Shown: piece by piece, positions 51,981-61,322 of the stretch | Position numbering within the stretch: the first letter of the stretch is position 1 | Layout: every line of letters starts with the position of its first letter | NCBI GenBank assembly: GCA_949299135.1 | Contig: CASFZG010000004.1 | Location: 1-64,000, forward strand | DNA: 64,000 bases | Source: an uncultured Phascolarctobacterium sp. | GTDB lineage: Bacteria > Bacillota > Negativicutes > Acidaminococcales > Acidaminococcaceae | Direction: 5' to 3' | Translations under genes and position numbers: made by a program | Notes under the pieces: generated by a model | What the model was told of the DNA's origin: nothing | Databases searched by the model: none | What the model saw: only the letters and a program-made list of their open reading frames with translations

Positions 51981-53075
51981 TCAGTCACGCTCCGTTCTGC
52001 CGGTAATTAAAAAGTCCATGCCCAGTTGTTTATATTCCACATCGCACAGCTTTAAGGCTTTGCCCATGTCGGTGCTGCCAATGCCGCCCACCGGGCCGAT
52101 TGCATTTTTGCCGCCGATAATTTTCGGCGCAATAAAAGCATAAACCCTTTCTGCCAGACCGGCGTCGATAAAAGCTCCGTGTACTTCACTGCCGCCTTCA
52201 ACCAGAACGCTGGTAATTTCCATGGCGGCCAGTTTTTCAAGCAGCGCCTGCAAATCCAGATGCCCGTTCTGCTGCGGCAATTTTAAAACTTCTACAGTGG
52301 TAAGTTTTTGCAGCTCATTAAGTTTATCCTGCGGCGCGGCTTCGCTTACAGCGACAATCGTTTTCGCTTCGCCGTTTAATATTTTGGCGTTCAGCGGTAT
52401 GGCGGCGTTGCTGTCCAACACAATGCGGCTGGGATTTTTGCCTTCCACCATGCGCGTCGTCAGTTCGCAGTCGTCTTGCAGCACGGTATTTTTGCCAACC
52501 AGAACGGCGTCGTGCGTTTTGCGCAGGTAATGCGCGTAAGTACGTGCTTCCGTGCCGGTAATCCATTTGGAATCACCGCCCGCAGCGGCAAGCCTGCCGT
52601 CCAGCGTCATGGCATATTTAAGCGATACAAACGGCCGCTTATGCGTAATCCAGAAGAAAAACTTTTCGTTTAATTTCTTTGCTTCGTCTTCGCAAACATG
52701 TTCCGTCACTTCTATTCCCGCTTCGCGCAGGCGGTTTAATCCGCGACCCGCTACCAGCGGATTAGGGTCTGTTACGGCGCTGACCACACGTTTAACACCT
52801 GCTTTAATCAGCGCCTCGCAGCACGGGCCGGTCCTACCATAATGGGAACACGGCTCCAGCGTAACGTAAACCGTCGCGCCTTTTGCCTTATCGCCTGCTG
52901 CTGCCAAAGCGTTAATCTCCGCGTGCGGCTGGCCTGCTTTGTGGTGGTAGCCTTCGCCGATAATGTTGCCGTTACCGTCAACAATCACCGCGCCGACCAT
53001 CGGGTTCGGACTGGTATCGCCCTCAGCCATCTGCGCCAGCTCCAGCGCGCGCCGCATAAATTTTATATCATCCAT
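51981..53075 (-). CDS. ribD: Bifunctional riboflavin deaminase/reductase RibD
   Basis: Second and third steps of riboflavin synthesis from GTP. The 364-residue protein has an N-terminal deaminase with zinc ligands His51 (HAEINAL), Cys76 and Cys85 (PCSHYGRTGPCC) and a C-terminal reductase (VSLKYAMTLDGRLA, VLVEGGSEVHGAFI). First gene of the operon; its leader holds the FMN riboswitch and a terminator hairpin. The regulatory region upstream is now interrupted by the integrative element. Confidence 0.96.
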   Translation of the reverse strand: MDDIKFMRRALELAQMAEGDTSPNPMVGAVIVDGNGNIIGEGYHHKAGQPHAEINALAAAGDKAKGATVYVTLEPCSHYGRTGPCCEALIKAGVKRVVSAVTDPNPLVAGRGLNRLREAGIEVTEHVCEDEAKKLNEKFFFWITHKRPFVSLKYAMTLDGRLAAAGGDSKWITGTEARTYAHYLRKTHDAVLVGKNTVLQDDCELTTRMVEGKNPSRIVLDSNAAIPLNAKILNGEAKTIVAVSEAAPQDKLNELQKLTTVEVLKLPQQNGHLDLQALLEKLAAMEITSVLVEGGSEVHGAFIDAGLAERVYAFIAPKIIGGKNAIGPVGGIGSTDMGKALKLCDVEYKQLGMDFLITGRTERD

Positions 53076-53129: not shown

Positions 53130-53142
53130 AAAAACATAGTTT

Positions 53143-53248
53143 GCCTTTTCTCATCCAGACTCTACTGTCGGTACCGGAATTGCACCGGTTCGTGCTTGCG
53201 CTCGCGGACTGTCACCGCCGGCTGGGAATTTCACCCTACCCCAAAGGC
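53143..53248 (-). ncRNA. FMN riboswitch (RFN element) of the rib operon, chimeric after insertion
   Basis: On the minus strand the conserved RFN blocks occur in order: GGGGTAGGGTGAAATTCCC, GCCGGCGGTGAC, AGTCCGCGAGC, GAACCGGTGCAATTCCGG, TACCGACAGTAGAGTCTGG and ATGAGA. P1 closes GCCTTT (53243-53248) with AAAGGC (53143-53148). It binds FMN and ends transcription through the hairpin at 53099-53129. Bases 53182-53249 are repeated at 58925-58992, so the 5' half appears to be supplied by the integrative element while the 3' half is the original host copy. Confidence 0.95.
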
Positions 53249-53249
53249 T
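53182..53249 (-). repeat. Left direct repeat (attL) of the integrative element
   Basis: 68 bp repeated at 58925-58992 with three mismatches; the first 40 bp (53182-53221) are identical. The repeat is the 5' half and central part of the FMN aptamer. Confidence 0.88.
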
Positions 53250-53343
53250 TAATACTAAAAAGCCCATTACATTGCTTGTTTGTGTGCTTTTTAGCATTTA
53301 TAAATTCAATATATTAAGTTATAAGTAGTGCATTACATATATA

Positions 53344-53372
53344 AGTATCTACCAAAGGTAGGATTTTGTCAA
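53344..53372 (-). promoter_or_regulatory. Element-side rib promoter now driving ribD
   Basis: Minus strand TTGACA (53367-53372), 17 bp, GATACT (53344-53349), about 95 bp upstream of the aptamer. The segment TGGTAGATACTTAT is identical at the right junction (59010-59023). Between promoter and aptamer lies a CTAAAAAGC/GCTTTTTAG inverted repeat (about 53256-53294). Confidence 0.65.
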
Positions 53373-54226
53373 TAAATCCAAAACTAAAAATTTGCAAAAA
53401 TTTTGTGAATGGGTATTTAATACATCAAAAATAATATTGTTTCCCCGTTACCCGCCCTTCATTGAACATACTGCTGATAATTTCCCTCCAATAATTATTT
53501 ACCATTTAAATTTTATTATACATAAGATTGACAACTGCTTTCAGCTTATTTATACTGTAAGCGTAAACCAATTACTTTTCCCTTAATTTTTAACAAAACC
53601 GCCCATATTACGGTTATACATAACACATGTTATCGGACTTTGTTTGTCATCTTCCGTTTATTTATTCACCAACAACTGTATAAACTTACTTATAGTACAC
53701 TTGTAATAAACTTGTGTGCTATTTTTATTATACTTTTTCGACCTTCAGCACCGCCATATTGCCACCATAAGCATTAAACGCAAACAATCGTTTTGAATTA
53801 TATTTTTATACACAACCAATTTTATTATTTTGTGTTATCTTTTGGGTACTATAAGGTAACGCAAAGGGTGTAATTAGTGTGGTACATCATCAAACTAAAA
53901 CTGATAATACAACAGTTTTAAAATAAAACTGGTCGTGAAATGTAACCCTATTATAAACTTAGGTTTGTTTTAAGCATAAGAATTACAGATTTAAAATTTT
54001 ACTACACACCGCCGCTACATCACCGTCATATTTCGCCTATAAGCGTTTTTATTACGCCTTCCTATAACTTTATATACCTAAATTCAAAAACACATTCACA
54101 AGTAAAATATATTGATAATATAATCTATCTGTCCCACATAAGTAGACAACAGCTTAGTGTCACACATATTGGAGAAAAGGGCTTCCTTTTTCCCTAAATT
54201 TAATGTGAAAGTAGGACGGATAAGAA
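53373..54226. other. Long AT-rich non-coding left arm of the element
   Basis: About 850 bp without a convincing gene. It contains an ACAGTTTT/AAAACTGGT hairpin near 53911-53932 and a module TTTGTGTTATCT (53829-53840) followed by GGTAACGCAA (53855-53864) that recurs in the other non-coding region of the element. A replication or packaging site is possible, not shown. Confidence 0.5.
54095..54124 (+). promoter_or_regulatory. Probable promoter of the SF2-like ATPase gene
   Basis: TTCACA (54095-54100), 18 bp, TATAAT (54119-54124). The leader carries an imperfect hairpin GGAGAAAAGG/CCTTTTTCCC (54170-54193). Confidence 0.45.
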
Positions 54227-55585
54227 ATGAACACAACAGAAAAAATTACCTTCAAAGCTATTGACGCTCCAACAGGCGCAGGAAAAACAACAGCAATTAT
54301 TAAAATGATAAATGCTGCACAAACTACCACCGACAACTTCGACCGCTTTTTGGTGCTTACGCCGTTACTGAGCGAAGTAGAACGTATCTGCAATGAGACA
54401 ACCTGCATGCCACCTTTAGAGAACAAAAGGAAACGCACATCAAAACTGCACGCTTTAAAGCAGCTTATCATCAATGGTGAAAATATTTGCTGTACACACA
54501 CGCTTTGTGAACTGTTTGATAGCGAAGTAAAAGATTTATTGCAATATGGTGATTATCACTACACACTCATTATTGATGAAGAACCTGCCGTTATACTGGA
54601 TGTTATCGACCAGCAGCAGCCAAAAGGCAACGCAAAGTCATCTAACAAGAACCTACAGGAGGTATACAAACTAAATAAGCAGGATTATAAAATGCTTAGA
54701 GAGCGTGGCTTTCTGCTTATTGATGAACCTTCAGGCAGGTTGTATTGGAATGATGAATTAGAATACAACAGCGCAGGCAGGCGTGGTGTATTTGAAGGTG
54801 TACGTAAAGCACTGGATAGCTTAGACTTGTACAGTATCAACAATGATAAACGTGTTATAGCGGTTGTAAACCCTTCAATATGGGCGTGCTTTGATGAAGT
54901 ATACATCAGCACATACCGCCTGCACAACAGCTTTTTTGATTACTATTGCCGCCTTTACGGCTTTGATATTGAGTATTACCACATCAACTGCGGCGGTGAG
55001 ATTGCAGCAGGTTTTATGCCTGTGTATCCAAAAGGACTTGAAAGGCTTGATATATGTAATAATATAAAATACAATCTTATAGGTGAAAAATACACACTAT
55101 CTAAGAATTGGTTTATACAAAACTGTAAAAAGAACTCACCTGCCGCCCATGAACTACACAATGCCCTGCGTGGTTTCCTGCGCTATGGTGTTCCAAAAGG
55201 TGAACTTACTGGCTACTATTGGACTACCTTTAAGGCATTTAAAGGTTGCCTTGCGGGTAAAGAGGTCAGCCCTAAGCGGTGGTTAGCACACAATACGAGA
55301 GCTACTAACGATTACAGCACTTGTAATGCGGTTGCTTTTGTTTGTGATAAATTCCCTAACCCCAACATAGAACGCTTTTTGAACAGCAAAGGTATAACGG
55401 TTGATAAAAAAGAATACGCCCTCTCCTACCTTATCCAGTTTGTATGGCGCTCCTGTATACGCACGGCATGCACAAATAAAGTGTATGTATACATTCCGTC
55501 AAGGCGTTTGAGGTTGCAATTCAAGGCGTGGTTGAGTACGGGTATAGGTACACAAAATATTGATACACAAAAAAGGGAAAAATAA
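54227..55585 (+). CDS. SF2-helicase-like ATPase of the element
   Basis: A 452-residue protein of no recognised named family. Walker A APTGAGKTT (residues 14-22), VLTPLLSEVERI like motif Ia, the Walker B box TLIIDEEP (Asp117, Glu118), and a motif VI-like QFVWRSCIR (Gln404, Arg408, Arg412) give it the layout of a superfamily 2 helicase. No nuclease or primase motif was seen. In a small element lacking any other replication gene it is the best candidate for a replication protein (inference). It is the only large gene facing right; a GGGAAAA/TTTTCCC hairpin overlaps its end. Confidence 0.7.
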   Translation: MNTTEKITFKAIDAPTGAGKTTAIIKMINAAQTTTDNFDRFLVLTPLLSEVERICNETTCMPPLENKRKRTSKLHALKQLIINGENICCTHTLCELFDSEVKDLLQYGDYHYTLIIDEEPAVILDVIDQQQPKGNAKSSNKNLQEVYKLNKQDYKMLRERGFLLIDEPSGRLYWNDELEYNSAGRRGVFEGVRKALDSLDLYSINNDKRVIAVVNPSIWACFDEVYISTYRLHNSFFDYYCRLYGFDIEYYHINCGGEIAAGFMPVYPKGLERLDICNNIKYNLIGEKYTLSKNWFIQNCKKNSPAAHELHNALRGFLRYGVPKGELTGYYWTTFKAFKGCLAGKEVSPKRWLAHNTRATNDYSTCNAVAFVCDKFPNPNIERFLNSKGITVDKKEYALSYLIQFVWRSCIRTACTNKVYVYIPSRRLRLQFKAWLSTGIGTQNIDTQKREK

Positions 55586-55600
55586 AGGATGCTGGATTTT
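55571..55600 (+). terminator. Weak hairpin at the end of the ATPase gene
   Basis: GGGAAAA and TTTTCCC flank a 15-nt loop across the stop codon, followed by TAAATTTG. The segment TTTTCCCTAAATTT also occurs upstream of the gene near 54188. Confidence 0.4.
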
Positions 55601-56138
55601 CCCTAAATTTGTGTAGAGGCACAGTACGCCTGCGTTCTGAGCTATTCTTTAGAGAAATAGAAGTATAAGGAAACACAAACTCCAATAGGTTTGATAAAGG
55701 TTAAATCTTTAATGGTTTATTATAATCATCTACCTTTAAACCCTCCTAAACTTCACATAAAGGTAACTAAAAGTATAACCACGGCTTACGTGTTGGTATT
55801 AAATCAACATGTTTACCGTGGTTACTTTTTGTTGCCATTAAGTTACCTTTATTCAATTTTTATCTGTTATATAAAACACAATCAATAATTATTATCTTTA
55901 TACCCCTTTGTGTTATCTCATAGTTACTTATAGTTTACTACAGGTAACATGCAGGTATTAAAGGGATTGTGTAATACAACTTTGTTTGTGTATTTATAAT
56001 CATAAACTTTAATCACAAACTACTGATACTTGTATTTTAGCTTTTGTGTTCTATTCTCTTTTGTTGTGTTTCCTTAATGTTTTGTACTTAATGGTAACGC
56101 AACAGTGACTAATAGGTAACTAAAAGGTAATTAGAAAA
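55586..56138. other. Non-coding region with repeats and a large inverted repeat
   Basis: About 550 bp without a convincing gene. It holds the inverted repeat at 55758-55851 and two copies of the TTTGTGTTATCT or GGTAACGCAA modules (55907-55918, 56093-56102), together with further GGTAAC sites. Confidence 0.5.
55758..55851. repeat. Nested inverted repeat, possible structured origin or terminator
   Basis: Outer arms TAAAGGTAACT (55758-55768) and AGTTACCTTTA (55841-55851), middle arms AACCACGG (55777-55784) and CCGTGGTT (55816-55823), inner arms TGTTG and CAACA (55791-55809). The inner part is followed by TACTTTTTG. Three nested perfect stems suggest a folded DNA or RNA structure. Confidence 0.65.
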
Positions 56139-56537
56139 TTAGTAAAAAATTTTAATAATTAAGGTTAGTAATACTTCGTTAGTAAACATAAAACTAAATG
56201 CAAATTTAAACTTCATTCTGAATAAGGAAATAAGGAAAATTATTATTGTTAATAGTGAAATAATCAAACTTATACCGTCTAATAAACTCTCTCCTTTTCC
56301 GACAAAAGATAAAATAAAACCAAACAACAACAACAATATACTTCTTCCTAAAACAAAAACAACGCCTGTTATTAAACCTTCTTTAAAAGAGAGTTTTTCT
56401 TCTTTGTCCCAAATCATTCCGAAAAGACTTGCTATTCCAAAACTTGCACCTAATAGGACTTGAAAGACAAAGCTCAATCCCCAAAGTAAAAAAGGTATCG
56501 CTATTATTCCTAAACAAATTTTCCATAAGATTTCCAT
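56139..56537 (-). CDS. Small four-helix membrane protein of the element
   Basis: A 132-residue very hydrophobic protein with about four membrane segments (for example IPFLLWGLSFVFQVLLG and LITGVVFVLGRSILLLLFG) and a short charged loop WDKEEKLSFKEG. No family recognised. AAGGAGAATAAAATTT lies before the ATG. It is divergent from the XRE gene across the region that contains the candidate operator, so it may be controlled by that regulator. Roles such as exclusion or host-membrane interaction are guesses only. Confidence 0.65.
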   Translation of the reverse strand: MEILWKICLGIIAIPFLLWGLSFVFQVLLGASFGIASLFGMIWDKEEKLSFKEGLITGVVFVLGRSILLLLFGFILSFVGKGESLLDGISLIISLLTIIIFLISLFRMKFKFAFSFMFTNEVLLTLIIKIFY

Positions 56538-56650
56538 AAATTTTATTCTCCTTATCTACTATACTTCTCTGTTTTATCTATCTTCATCAAAACTAAATAA
56601 TCCCATCTTAAAACCTCCCAAGCCATAATAAAATTATATTTCAAAACCAT

Positions 56651-56671
56651 TTTACTACATTTTGTTGTAAA
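56651..56671. promoter_or_regulatory. Candidate operator of the element's XRE regulator
   Basis: TTTACTACA-TTT-TGTTGTAAA, 9-bp arms with one mismatched pair, between the divergent membrane-protein and XRE genes. A TATAAT (56698-56703) lies just downstream for the XRE gene. Confidence 0.5.
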
Positions 56672-56720
56672 TCTCAATTTGTTTGTGCTTCTTTTCGTAT
56701 AATTCATACAGGTGATAAAA

Positions 56721-56921
56721 ATGTATACCCGTATTAAAGATTTACGAGAAGATAGAGATTTAACACAATCAGATATGGCTAAAATATTACACTGCACTCA
56801 GCAAGCCTACAGTAACTATGAATTAGGTTTACGTGATATACCAACAAACATTTTAATTGCATTAGCTGATTTCCATAATACAACAACAGATTATATATTA
56901 GGCAGGACTAACAAAAAATAA
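56721..56921 (+). CDS. XRE-family transcription regulator
   Basis: A 66-residue single-domain Cro/CI-like helix-turn-helix protein: IKDLREDRDLTQSDMAKIL, CTQQAYSNYELGLRDIP, then a C-terminal TTDYILGRT as in small Firmicute XRE repressors. ATG 56721 is preceded by AGGTGAT; an in-frame GTG at 56712 is less likely. It probably controls the divergent gene and itself through the palindrome at 56651-56671. Confidence 0.85.
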   Translation: MYTRIKDLREDRDLTQSDMAKILHCTQQAYSNYELGLRDIPTNILIALADFHNTTTDYILGRTNKK

Positions 56922-56967
56922 AGCAGCCCTATAGTTCCATTTAGGAAAACATAGGACTGCTTTTTTA
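56920..56967. terminator. Bidirectional terminator between XRE gene and orf248
   Basis: AAAGCAGCCCTAT (56920-56932) pairs with ATAGGACTGCTTT (56951-56963) with one mismatch, then TTTTATTT on the plus strand; the minus strand also ends in a T-rich run. Confidence 0.8.
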
Positions 56968-56976
56968 TTTACTTCA

Positions 56977-57723
56977 TTATGCGTGTTTTAAATACTGTTC
57001 CGCTGTAGGTGCTACCTTTATTGTGGTGTTTGGACTATCTTCACCCATATAACCCCATAATGCCTCCTGTATGTATGCCGCAAGGCAATTCAAAGGTACT
57101 TCCTGCGCCATTTCAGCGAATGTGTTAAACCCTCTTAATTCCTCAAACTTATACTTCAACTCATCAAATACGCATGCTGTAATGTCAATGTTTTGGCGAC
57201 CGTATTCTCTGAGTTCATAATCCGTACGGAACAAGCAAAGTTCATAGTCTTTTCCGTCATCAAGGTAATATAGTACGCTTTTATCACTGCTTAAACAGTA
57301 TATATCATTTATACCACTTATTATGCCCTCACACATCAGCGTAGCCAATTCACTGTTATGTATTTGTGCCGTCCTATACACAGCAAAGTCATGGCACATG
57401 TCCCCACTGCCGCCTGAGGTTGCCCTAAAGGTTGCCATACACTCTCTTAAAAGGCGATATTGTTCATTAACAGATAACCCCTGCTCTTGTATCTGCCGCA
57501 GGAAACACTCACGGGCTGTATAGTAATATTCATTCATTACTGCGTTTATAAGGGTGCTGAAAGTGTACTCACCGTTTTGTAAACTTTGCTGTACCTTCGG
57601 CATATCAATCATGTTGTATGAATACCGTGGTATATTTACACCTTCAATAGTTACCACAACAGGGCGTTCATCAAAAGGATATTTATTTACTTCTTTTTCA
57701 TTGTCAATATCTAAATATAACAT
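56977..57723 (-). CDS. Unknown 248-residue protein of the element
   Basis: No family recognised. Acidic and Tyr/Cys-rich, with no signal peptide or membrane helix. Visible features: VVVTIEGVNIPRYSYNMID near the N-terminus, a GGSGDMCHDFAVYR segment in the middle and a C-terminal SPNTTIKVAPTAEQYLKHA. It follows the integrase gene by 22 bp with AAGGAA before its ATG, so the two are probably co-transcribed. Its position suggests a role in excision, maintenance or host interaction, none of which can be shown from sequence. Confidence 0.65.
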   Translation of the reverse strand: MLYLDIDNEKEVNKYPFDERPVVVTIEGVNIPRYSYNMIDMPKVQQSLQNGEYTFSTLINAVMNEYYYTARECFLRQIQEQGLSVNEQYRLLRECMATFRATSGGSGDMCHDFAVYRTAQIHNSELATLMCEGIISGINDIYCLSSDKSVLYYLDDGKDYELCLFRTDYELREYGRQNIDITACVFDELKYKFEELRGFNTFAEMAQEVPLNCLAAYIQEALWGYMGEDSPNTTIKVAPTAEQYLKHA

Positions 57724-57745
57724 TAAAATTCCTTCTTTCTCAGTT

Positions 57746-58663
57746 TTAATAATACTGCCATTTTGTATTGTCTAATGGATTGTATTTGTCATTTTGCAGG
57801 CGTATTTCCTCTTTGGTAAGCTCTATATAAATACGTGTGCTTTCTATATCCTCATGCCCTAAAATTTTTTGTAATGAGAATAAATCGCCGCCATTTAATA
57901 AGAAAAACTTAGCAAAGGTATGCCGCCACGTATGAGCTGATACACGGTTAGCCCATTGGTGTTTTGATTGTTTTAATTTAAAGAATACGTTACCTAAACC
58001 GCCCTTAGTAAACCTACAACCTGTACAGCTTATTATAAAAGCACCATTATCATTTAAAGACTTTTCTTTTAGGTATTCTCTGCGTTTCTTTAAGTATGTA
58101 AAAATGATACGGTGCAATACAGGACTTATAGGAACATAACGCTCTTTGTTGCCTTTACCGTTCACCTTCATTGAGTCTATATCTAAATACACATCAGAAA
58201 GGTTCAATTTCAACATCTCCCCTTTTCTTAAACCTGTACTAAATAAAATACTCATAATGGTGTAGTTTCTGAACCCTGCAAAAGTGTTCTTATCAAAAGC
58301 ATTTAATATTGCCTGTACTTCTTCACGGTTAAATGATTGTACTACCTTTTTGGGAACACGTGGTTTCGGTATACCGTCTAAAGGATTTGTGTGTATGATA
58401 TGCCGTGATACAAGGCATTTAAAGCAAGCCCGTATAGCAATAAAATTATGTTTTATTGTACCTTCACAACATGTTTTTCTTTTATAGGCAAAATAGTCTA
58501 ATACATCAGCCTCTGTAATTTCCTCAATATTACTTTTGCCGATACGTTGTAGATACATTCCAAAACCCTTTAGGTACTCAGAGTAGTTTTGTATAGTCCG
58601 CTCTGATAACATACGCCCTAAACAATCTCTGTAAAAAATTTGTATAGCTTCATAATACAGCAA
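57746..58663 (-). CDS. int: Tyrosine recombinase (integrase)
   Basis: Site-specific recombinase of 305 residues. An N-terminal SAM-like core-binding domain (residues about 1-95) precedes the catalytic domain with Arg146 (TGLRKGEM), Lys170 (VNGKGNKER), His244 and Arg247 (SAHTWRHTF), His270 (ILGHEDI) and Tyr279 (RIYIEL); the full R-K-H-R-H-Y set is present. Start TTG 58663 is 7 bp after AGGAGGT. It lies about 260 bp inside the right repeat, the usual position relative to the attachment site. It resembles XerD-like integrases of small elements more than the chromosomal XerC/D pair. Confidence 0.93.
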   Translation of the reverse strand: MLYYEAIQIFYRDCLGRMLSERTIQNYSEYLKGFGMYLQRIGKSNIEEITEADVLDYFAYKRKTCCEGTIKHNFIAIRACFKCLVSRHIIHTNPLDGIPKPRVPKKVVQSFNREEVQAILNAFDKNTFAGFRNYTIMSILFSTGLRKGEMLKLNLSDVYLDIDSMKVNGKGNKERYVPISPVLHRIIFTYLKKRREYLKEKSLNDNGAFIISCTGCRFTKGGLGNVFFKLKQSKHQWANRVSAHTWRHTFAKFFLLNGGDLFSLQKILGHEDIESTRIYIELTKEEIRLQNDKYNPLDNTKWQYY

Positions 58664-58782
58664 ACTTTACACCTCCTCTCAATTAAAAATATTTTGTAAT
58701 GCTTGTATTTTGTAATTTTGGTAGGATATTATAAATAAAAATTTACGGAACAACCTACCAGTTAAGGTATCATAAAATACAA

Positions 58783-58819
58783 AAAGTAGTGCTCAAACAA
58801 TTAGTTCAAACACTACTTT
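58783..58819 (-). terminator. Terminator between the right junction and int
   Basis: On the minus strand AAAGTAGTG (58811-58819) pairs perfectly with CACTACTTT (58783-58791) and runs into TTTTTG. It would stop transcripts entering the element from the ancestral rib promoter. Confidence 0.75.
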
Positions 58820-58868
58820 AATAACTCAAATATATTTAATTGAAAAGCTGTAAAGCCGCCTGTAGAGC

Positions 58869-58924
58869 GGTTAATACATAGTATTTCCTTTTGGTTACAA
58901 GAAGTAACGGTCAGTGACTGGAAG
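58869..58924 (-). pseudogene. Decayed 3' half of an FMN riboswitch leader
   Basis: Minus strand after the shared core reads TTCCAGTCACTGACCGTTAC and later AAAAGG and ACTATGTATTAAC. By eye it aligns with the intact leader (TTCCGGTACCGACAGT, AAAAGG, ACTATGTTTTTAAC) with about 18 of 25 matches in the aptamer part. The P5 3' strand and the GTCTGGATGAGA block are lost, so it should not fold as a working aptamer. Confidence 0.6.
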
Positions 58925-58992
58925 GCACCGGTTCGTGCTTGCGCTCGCGGACTGTCACCGCCGGTCGGGAATTGCACCCTACCCCAAAGGCT
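58925..58992 (-). repeat. Right direct repeat (attR) of the integrative element
   Basis: Copy of 53182-53249 (65 of 68 identical). Reads as an RFN 5' half (GGGGTAGGGTGCAATTCCC, GACCGGCGGTGAC) with no intact 3' half. Confidence 0.88.
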
Positions 58993-59012
58993 ATTATTAA
59001 ATTACTACCATA

Positions 59013-59041
59013 AGTATCTACCATTGGCAAAGATTTGTCAA
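59013..59041 (-). promoter_or_regulatory. Ancestral rib promoter, now facing into the element
   Basis: Minus strand TTGACA (59036-59041), 17 bp, GATACT (59013-59018), 21 bp before the aptamer 5' half. Same design and partly identical sequence to the promoter at 53344-53372. Confidence 0.7.
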
Positions 59042-59071: not shown

Positions 59072-59635
59072 TTAAATAAACTTAGGGTTTTGCAGCAGCA
59101 TCATGCACAGCGCGCTTAAAGTCTTGGCGTCAAAGATTTCTTCGTTTTGCAGCATGGCGCGCACCTCTGCCGGTTTCAGCGCCGCGATGTCGATAAATTC
59201 ATCTTCGTCGGTATGCTGGTTAAATTTTTCCAGTCCAGTTGCCACATACAAATGGATTACCTCATCGGTAAAGCCCGGCGTGGTAACAATGCTGGTCAGC
59301 TTCTGCCAGTTCTTGGCGGTGTAGCCTGTTTCCTCCGACAGCTCACGTTTGGCGCAGTCCAGCGGGTCTTCGTTTGGTTTATCCAGCTTGCCTGCGGGCA
59401 GCTCATAAAGCACGCTGCCGACAGCATAGCGGTACTGCTTTACAAAAATAATGCTGCCGTCCTCCAGCACCGGCACAACGCACACCGCGCCCGGGTGGGC
59501 AATTATCTCGCGCGTTGTTTCCCTGCCGTTGGGCAGCGTTACGGTATCAACCATTACCTTTAAAAGCCTGCCGTCAAAGCCCTGCTTGCGGCTGACAAAT
59601 TTTTCATCAAGATTTTCCTGATGTATTTTCTTCAT
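59072..59635 (-). CDS. nudF: NUDIX hydrolase, ADP-ribose pyrophosphatase-like
   Basis: Hydrolyses ADP-ribose or similar nucleoside diphosphate derivatives. The 187-residue protein has the Nudix box in the form G-x5-E-x7-REL-x-EE-x-G (starting GKLDKPNEDP and ending RELSEETGY). The open frame extends to 59689, but ATG 59635 just after the recN stop, with AGGGTG upstream, is preferred. Co-transcribed with recN. Its end lies only 31 bp from the ancestral rib promoter. Confidence 0.92.
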   Translation of the reverse strand: MKKIHQENLDEKFVSRKQGFDGRLLKVMVDTVTLPNGRETTREIIAHPGAVCVVPVLEDGSIIFVKQYRYAVGSVLYELPAGKLDKPNEDPLDCAKRELSEETGYTAKNWQKLTSIVTTPGFTDEVIHLYVATGLEKFNQHTDEDEFIDIAALKPAEVRAMLQNEEIFDAKTLSALCMMLLQNPKFI

Positions 59636-59639
59636 AATA

Positions 59640-61322
59640 TCACCCTGCGTTTTTAAATTTTGCGGCGTTTGCCAAAAGTTCTTCCGCATTTTGGCGTGCA
59701 GCGTCGCTGGTGTTTTCGCCTGCCGTCATGCGCATCAGCTCATCAACGCGTCCGGCTTCGTCCAGAACATTCAGTTCCGTCTGTGTGCGCCCGCCTGCGC
59801 TGACCTTGTTAATTTTAATGTGGCGGTCGGCAAAGCTGGCAATCTGCGGCAAATGCGTAATGCAGATAACCTGCCCGTTGCGTGAGATAACGGCAATTTT
59901 TTCAGCCATTTTCTGCGCCGTAACGCCGCCGATGCCGGTGTCAATCTCGTCAAAAATCATCGTCGGCACGCCAAGCTCGTTAAACAATACGGTCTTAACC
60001 GCCAAAGCGATACGCGACAGCTCGCCGCCTGAAGCTACTTTGCTTAATTCCATCAAAGGCTCGCCCGCATTAGCGGAGAACAAAAACGTCATTTCATTGC
60101 AGCCGTTCTTGCCGAAATCGTCCTTCTGCGCAAAAATGATTTCAATTCTGCCTTGCGGCATTGCCAAATCGGTAATATGCGCCGTTATTTCTTTAGTTAA
60201 AAGCTGCGCGCTGTGTTTGCGCAGTTCCGTAAGCTGTGCGGCAAGTTTCGTCAACGCTTCCGTTTTCTGCGTCAGCTCTTTGGTTTTCTGCGCAATACTG
60301 CGGTCAATTTCTTTCAATTCGTCCGCTTCCTGCTGGACCTTTTGCAGGTAAGCGTTGATAGCGTCATAATCGGCGCCGTATTTTTTCTGCAATCTATACC
60401 ATAAATCTAAACGCTGCTCCACATAAGCTGCTCGTTCAGCGTCAAATTCGTTGTTTTCCAGATAGTCCAGCAAATTTTTATGGCATTCCTCCAGCGTCAG
60501 CCAGCAGCTTTCCAAAAGCTCGGCGTTGGCATTAAGGCTGCCGTCGTAACGCGCTGCGCTTTCAATTTTGCTTCTGGCTTCCGCCAAAGCGTCCAGCGCG
60601 CTGTATTTACCATCAACCAGTTCGTTGGCGGCACTGACGGACTGCATAATTTTGCCGTTATTTTGCAGGCGTTTCCATTCATTCTGCAATTCGTCCAGCT
60701 CGCCTGCCTGCAAATTGGCATTGGTAATTTCTTCAATCTCCCATTCCAGGCGGTCTAAAATTCTTTCGCGGTCCTGCCCGATGTTCTGCAAACGTTCCAG
60801 TTCGTCTTTAATATGATTGTATTCCGCAAAAGCGCTGCGGTAATTTTCCAGCACCGGCGTAATTTCCGTATGACCGTACAAATCAGTCAGCTGCTGCGGA
60901 AAATCCGCTTTTAAAAGCGCCTGGTTTTCGTGCTGTCCGTGTACGTCCACCAGCACGGCGGCAAAGCTGCGCAACACGGCAACAGGCACCTGCACGCCGT
61001 TAACGGTTGCCGTACTTTTACCGGCGGCAGTAATGCGGCGGCGCAAAAACAAACCGTCCTCATAATCAATGCCCTGCTCCTCCAAAAGTTTTCGGGCAGC
61101 GGGGCAATCGTCAATATCAAACACAGCCTGCACGGTTAAAGAGTCCGTGCCGCTGCGCACATAATCTGCCGAAGCACGCGCCCCCAGCGCAATGCTGAAA
61201 GCGTCGATAAGTATGGATTTACCTGCGCCGGTTTCGCCTGTAAATACATTAAACCCGCCGGTAAATTCCACTCTGGCATCTTCAATTAAAGCAAAATTAT
61301 GGACATGTAAAGCCTGAAGCAT
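59640..61322 (-). CDS. recN: DNA repair protein RecN
   Basis: SMC-like ATPase for double-strand-break repair. The 560-residue protein has Walker A GETGAGKSILIDAF, a long central coiled coil, the ABC signature ASGGELSRIALAVK and Walker B FDEIDTGIGG. It is in the conserved cluster dxs-tlyA-nadK-argR-recN. No LexA-type box directly before it was seen. Confidence 0.95.
   Translation of the reverse strand: MLQALHVHNFALIEDARVEFTGGFNVFTGETGAGKSILIDAFSIALGARASADYVRSGTDSLTVQAVFDIDDCPAARKLLEEQGIDYEDGLFLRRRITAAGKSTATVNGVQVPVAVLRSFAAVLVDVHGQHENQALLKADFPQQLTDLYGHTEITPVLENYRSAFAEYNHIKDELERLQNIGQDRERILDRLEWEIEEITNANLQAGELDELQNEWKRLQNNGKIMQSVSAANELVDGKYSALDALAEARSKIESAARYDGSLNANAELLESCWLTLEECHKNLLDYLENNEFDAERAAYVEQRLDLWYRLQKKYGADYDAINAYLQKVQQEADELKEIDRSIAQKTKELTQKTEALTKLAAQLTELRKHSAQLLTKEITAHITDLAMPQGRIEIIFAQKDDFGKNGCNEMTFLFSANAGEPLMELSKVASGGELSRIALAVKTVLFNELGVPTMIFDEIDTGIGGVTAQKMAEKIAVISRNGQVICITHLPQIASFADRHIKINKVSAGGRTQTELNVLDEAGRVDELMRMTAGENTSDAARQNAEELLANAAKFKNAG

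Follow-up and report, generated by a model that had tools for sequence, protein, structure and literature searches.

The FMN Riboswitch before ribD as the Probable Attachment Site of a Small Integrative Element of Acidaminococcaceae

Introduction

Sequence of the FMN riboswitch occurs twice, about 5.74 kb apart, upstream of the riboflavin operon of an uncultured Phascolarctobacterium species, and a tyrosine recombinase gene is located between the two copies. This arrangement raises the question of whether a mobile element has used a riboswitch as its attachment site and, if so, how the operon came to keep a complete aptamer. It is standard for islands to restore the tRNA and tmRNA genes into which they integrate (PMC12424338, PMC10865867), and islands at such genes make up 33.8% of those mapped by Islander/TIGER (PMC12424338).

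We analyzed the first 64,000 nucleotides of contig CASFZG010000004.1 (assembly GCA_949299135.1, hereafter genome G000), referred to below as the window, together with the related species G001–G005, 380 Negativicutes genomes and IMG/VR. An earlier reading of the window from its letters (the sequence-only reading) had proposed that an integrative element is attached at the riboswitch and rebuilds it.

Results and Discussion

Two Aptamer Copies at the Ends of an AT-Rich Insert

The main features of the locus are as follows.

51981–53075, minus strand: ribD, first gene of the riboswitch-controlled ribD-ribE-ribBA-ribH
53139–53252, minus strand: complete (rebuilt) FMN aptamer before ribD, proximal copy (Rfam RF00050, 102.4 bits)
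53234–53248, minus strand: 15-bp block GCCTTTGGGGTAGGG, proximal copy, proposed strand-exchange region
53249–58976, no strand assigned: integrative element of about 5.74 kb, measured from start to start (GC drop; absent from G001–G004, present in G005)
58882–58995, minus strand: distal aptamer copy, partial and degenerate (41.1 bits)
58977–58991, minus strand: 15-bp block GCCTTTGGGGTAGGG, distal copy
59013–59041, minus strand: original rib promoter of the host, which now precedes the truncated distal copy (same in G002–G005)
59072–59689, minus strand: nudix gene (PF00293), by synteny the gene next upstream of the empty site in relatives

The operon runs leftward from 53075. When the Rfam model was run with cmscan on both copies, as the sequence-only reading had suggested, the proximal one gave a full match, the single FMN riboswitch above the Rfam cut-off in this genome, and the distal one, 5,743 bp upstream of it, gave a partial, sub-threshold match (E-value = 6e-7). 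The two share a direct repeat (53182–53249 and 58925–58992) in which 65 of 68 positions (96%) are identical, 40 bp of them without interruption, exactly as had been claimed; gapless extension lengthens it to 109 nt at 80% identity, and no further copy is present in the 1.87-Mb genome. The block GCCTTTGGGGTAGGG, which comprises the P1 5' strand, J1/2 (the P1/P2 junction) and the P2 5' strand, occurs in this genome only at these two places. Judged from its sequence, the distal copy looks like the host 5' end fused to a right arm of the element that is reminiscent of a decayed 3' half of an aptamer; when aligned with the true 3' half, this arm gave a P-value of about 0.003 in G000 and 0.03–0.12 in G005.

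Gene Content of the Element

GC content between the copies is 26–42% in 500-bp windows versus approximately 50% on either side, and a complete recombinase gene (int) lies beside the distal copy, in agreement with the previously described AT-rich insert carrying a tyrosine recombinase at one end. Leftwards from the distal copy, a hairpin (discussed below) is followed by int and by genes for a 248-aa protein, a helix-turn-helix (HTH) regulator, a 132-aa protein and a helicase-like protein.

57746–58663, minus strand: int, Xer-like tyrosine recombinase, 305 aa (Pfam PF00589, 1.7e-27; PHROG integrase, 1e-49)
56977–57723, minus strand: conserved element protein, 248 aa (81% identical in G005)
56712–56921, plus strand: HTH_3 (Cro/CI-type) regulator, 69 aa (PF01381, 4e-12; absent in G005)
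56139–56537, minus strand: small hydrophobic protein, 132 aa (absent in G005)
54227–55585, plus strand: SF2 helicase-like protein, 452 aa, of the SPbeta YonV/phrog_2467 family (phrog_2467, 5e-48)

Multiple alignment revealed that the catalytic R, HTWRH (HxxR) and Y motifs of Int are conserved, and the recombinase appears intact. The helicase-like protein matches SPbeta yonV at 30%, and its predicted structure has a fold match to the SF2 helicases XPD/DinG (E-value = 8e-7); it probably has a role in replication. The 248-aa protein has a relative (23%) in an element at a tRNA-Leu gene (L049) and no match in Pfam, PHROG or NCBIfam. Profile searches detected no capsid, terminase, relaxase or transfer genes among the five examined ORFs of the element, which encode Int, the HTH regulator, the helicase and two proteins without assigned function and do not mark it as a prophage or a conjugative element.

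The non-coding part of the element contains a long interrupted inverted repeat (55757–55852) and scattered AGGTAAC motifs, which might together represent a replication origin. In the G005 element, the motif shows no enrichment.

Empty and Filled Sites in Related Species

Four congeneric species (G001–G004) have the nudix gene, the promoter, a single aptamer and ribD in a row, which corresponds to the empty site; that relatives without int should have one aptamer was an expectation of the sequence-only reading. Core genes around the site are 94–95% identical to those of G000 in G002, G003 and G004 and 80.5% identical in G001. The empty site predicted by joining the window flanks aligns end to end with the sites of G002–G004 at 93–95% identity, which equals the species background.

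In a fifth species (G005; L001, CASEIL010000002.1), a diverged related element occupies exactly the same place. Its Int and helicase proteins are 84% and 72% identical to those of G000, respectively; at the DNA level, element genes are 75–82% identical (int 81%, the 248-aa gene 82%) versus 84.8% for host genes. The rebuilt aptamer before ribD is complete here as well (100.1 bits), so that in both filled sites the target RNA scores above the cut-off after insertion. All four empty sites and each end of the two elements carry GCCTTTGGGGTAGGG unchanged. A tyrosine recombinase near one end, flanking repeats with a matching empty site, and a diverged copy at the same target in a second species are therefore all present, and the proposal that the FMN riboswitch serves as the attachment site is strengthened by both the empty sites and the G005 insertion.

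G000 and G005 are the only two filled sites known, and a pattern search of the 380 Negativicutes genomes detected duplicated aptamer 5' parts in these two only. A double aptamer match in another genome (G237), considered as a third duplication, was rejected as an overlap of contig ends. No circular form was found, and scans of IMG/VR with int, the helicase and two DNA patterns detected no relative or free attP. The 15-mer GCCTTTGGGGTAGGG had 82 matches in IMG/VR, which look like chance occurrences, none of them continuing as an aptamer.

The Exchange Point

In G005, the sequence common to both ends of the element consists only of GCCTTTGGGGTAGGG, four differing bases and TTTCCCAACCGGCGGT, a repeat of about 31/35 bp in which identity stops after CCGGCGGT. 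The P2 loop is also informative: the int-side (distal) copies contain GCA in both elements (TGCA, AGCA), and the ribD-side (proximal) copies are of host type, with TGAA as in G002–G004 and TTAG as in G001. The simplest reading of these sequences is an exchange within the 15-bp block GCCTTTGGGGTAGGG or at its edge with the 7-nt P2 loop.

Because G005 diverges after CCGGCGGT and the proximal P2 loops match the hosts, the element's share of the rebuilt aptamer is probably no more than the first ~15 nt, and from the P2 loop onward the aptamer would be host sequence. The sequence-only reading was right that the left copy and the host 3' half form a full aptamer; its view that both the 5' half and the centre come from the element gives way to a contribution that is probably limited to GCCTTTGGGGTAGGG. 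The long repeat in the window would then be the right arm of the element. One detail does not fit: just after P2, the proximal G000 copy reads AG, in contrast to GA in the relatives and in the distal copy of G000 itself. This difference is not accounted for if strands are simply exchanged 5' of the P2 loop.

Promoters and Hairpins at the Element Ends

Two additional features relate to transcription across the insertion.

53344–53372, minus strand: rib-like promoter at the left end of the element, reading into the rebuilt riboswitch
58783–58819, minus strand: hairpin of 16 bp followed by a T-rich tail, located between int and the distal copy (folding z –5.9)

The left-end promoter (53372–53344, minus strand) has the form TTGACA-17-GATACT, and its hexamers and spacing are identical to those of the host promoter (59041–59013, minus strand). 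The two agree at 27 of 35 nt, with a score of 19; the highest score among 3,000 resampled sequences was 16. The left end of the G005 element yielded neither a rib-like promoter nor similarity to that of the host. The idea that insertion exchanges the promoter consequently stands for G000, where a homologous left-end promoter is clear, and not for G005; promoter supply appears to be real in G000 and, since the left end of G005 has no such promoter, is not a constant feature of these elements.

The hairpin near int has a counterpart in G005 (L001 8843–8880, z –5.6), where the sequence has changed and the hairpin has been kept. It is likely a terminator that shields int from the transcript of the orphaned host rib promoter. 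A further AT-rich hairpin (53250–53310, z –3.6) lies at the left end of the element, directly 5' of the rebuilt aptamer, and has a weaker counterpart in G005. It may be an integrase arm site or a leader structure.

The Integrase Family and Its Targets

The nearest integrases in the 380 Negativicutes genomes are 40–47% identical to Int. Each of their genes follows an RNA gene, or the 5' part of one, at a distance of approximately 170–340 bp and with matching orientation; the targets are tRNA-Gln, tRNA-Leu, tRNA-Ser, tRNA-Ala and, twice (G001 and G005), rnpB. Exact flanking repeats measure 98 bp in the tRNA-Gln element, 124 bp in the tRNA-Leu element, and 107 and 99 bp in the rnpB elements. The rnpB repeats cover the promoter as well as the RNase P RNA 5' end, with Rfam RF00010 detected at the far copies; G000 and G002–G004 have one copy of this 5' end, and G001 and G005 have two. 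The two FMN-site integrases are set apart as a group with full bootstrap support in an unrooted tree. Because the relatives of Int sit at tRNA genes and rnpB, the riboswitch appears from these sequences to be one target of a clade of integrases that specializes in structured RNA loci. At rnpB and at the riboswitch the functional remainder lies downstream, so the element must bring the 5' side.

The rnpB elements of the two Phascolarctobacterium species are bounded by repeats at L083 2037–2143 and 12880–12986 (10.8 kb) and at L084 1441–1539 and 12861–12959 (11.4 kb). The rnpB gene beside the G005 element (L084 12907–13052) scores 78 bits, below the cut-off, and, unlike that of G001, diverges directly after the repeat; it is possibly a damaged gene or an assembly problem. 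The tRNA T-arm and FMN P2 may share a core motif of a G-rich arm, a 7-nt loop and a C-rich arm; none was seen in rnpB.

Solo genes for YonV-like helicases were observed in another genus of the family (L118 9054–10772, L123 9355–10797 and L122 7476–8933), between housekeeping genes and in some cases beside a lysine riboswitch or 6S RNA. These were rejected as insertions, having neither a nearby relative of the recombinase nor a flanking RNA repeat.

Alternative Explanations

The duplicated aptamer might have arisen through tandem duplication of the riboswitch or import by homologous recombination, with the adjacent integrase being incidental. The repeat in the window is of sufficient length for this; however, the empty sites have a single aptamer, the G005 repeat is far shorter, and relatives of Int flank duplicated RNA loci with the same geometry, so that we consider this explanation highly improbable. 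Less remote, although still unlikely, is inheritance of the element from a common ancestor of G000 and G005 followed by precise loss in G002–G004. The exact site is common to both filled genomes, and the element is only slightly more diverged than the host genes. On the other hand, several precise losses would be needed in the G002–G004 group, the HTH and 132-aa genes are missing from G005, and a precise loss is itself site-specific excision. Whether the insertions were independent or an old insertion was repeatedly and precisely lost, site-specific mobility follows.

With regard to the exchange point, a position further 3', in the 40-bp perfect block (P3 and beyond), would mean that the aptamer owes both its 5' half and its centre to the element. 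Perfect identity in G000 is located there, and the AG of the proximal copy would then be element-derived. Yet this block is dispensable, as the G005 repeat shows, and the scenario requires an independent gain of GCA in the distal P2 loop by both hosts and a chance match of the G005 proximal TTAG to the G001 host; we therefore regard it as rather improbable and prefer an exchange at GCCTTTGGGGTAGGG. A different objection concerns function: insertion may alter riboflavin control through a new promoter and a longer leader with a hairpin, the intact aptamer being a by-product of attP/attB identity. In the filled G000 locus the promoter lies ~90 nt before the aptamer instead of ~17 nt as for the host promoter, G005 has no clear rib-like promoter, and a prophage in a preQ1 riboswitch was reported as likely to change expression (PMC10117131). 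Both rebuilt aptamers, however, score well above the cut-off, and in G000 a host-homologous promoter has been placed before the rebuilt aptamer. Altered control is thus doubtful, but it deserves about as much weight as ancestral inheritance.

Proposed Mechanism

Taken together, we consider it very likely (probability of roughly 0.9) that the FMN riboswitch upstream of ribD is the attB of a small integrative element found in Acidaminococcaceae. In the proposed mechanism, the Xer-like Int would act on a circular attP and this attB, recombining them in GCCTTTGGGGTAGGG or at the adjoining edge of the 7-nt P2 loop, and insertion would separate ribD from its own promoter and the first aptamer bases. 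The left end of the element would offer an equivalent P1/P2 5' strand, allowing P1 to re-close with the host 3' strand and leaving a complete aptamer before ribD, in G000 together with a rib-like promoter from the element. The displaced host promoter and aptamer fragment would stay at the far end, sealed from int by the terminator-like hairpin. Catalysis by Int, the exact exchange point, excision and the preservation of FMN control are what we infer here from the compared sequences.

Relationship to Known Systems

Like islands at tRNA and tmRNA genes, the FMN element has a tyrosine recombinase at one end, a partial repeat of a structured RNA and an attP that restores the target, and the relatives of its own Int use tRNA genes. 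It differs from them in that the target is a cis-regulatory riboswitch, the 5' end is the part restored, and the promoter is displaced. In this respect it resembles dusA-associated islands, whose own sequence replaces the 5' end of the target, leaving the original 5' end at the far end, and where promoter-like sequences are found before and after insertion (PMC4482086); the dusA target is protein-coding, however, and the integrase family is different according to the description in that study. The rnpB elements (G001:C6 and G005:C20) share a related Int and helicase, duplicate the promoter together with the 5' end of the RNA, and leave a rebuilt RNA gene, whereas they target RNase P RNA, are 10.8–11.4 kb long and have integrases only 42–44% identical to that of the FMN element.

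A prophage integrated in a preQ1 riboswitch of Enterococcus cecorum was briefly mentioned previously, with a predicted change of downstream expression (PMC10117131). It is likewise an integrative element in a riboswitch, but unlike for the FMN element, no rebuilding was described. In the literature searched, we found no report of a riboswitch rebuilt by an inserting element. The statement that a riboswitch aptamer as attachment site is not a described class was therefore slightly too strong, given the preQ1 prophage and the known 5'-end replacement at dusA; what holds is that riboswitch rebuilding was not found described.

Implications

It is tempting, though still speculative, to suggest that riboswitches, together with structured RNA leaders in general, constitute a class of site at which integration recurs, that tRNA genes were the earlier targets of this integrase clade, which then shifted to rnpB and a riboswitch aptamer, and that their elements evolved promoter and RNA 5' pieces with which the operon, although separated from its native promoter, stays under control. 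Surveys that sort sites into tRNA/tmRNA, coding and intergenic classes (PMC12424338) would count such islands as intergenic. Searches for genomic islands gain rnpB and riboswitches as places to examine. The locus also offers a natural experiment on riboswitch modularity, with a P1 strand and a promoter swapped. The preference of integrases for conserved structured RNA genes would extend to a metabolite-sensing cis-regulatory RNA, and at such a site restoration must preserve regulation, beyond an RNA product.
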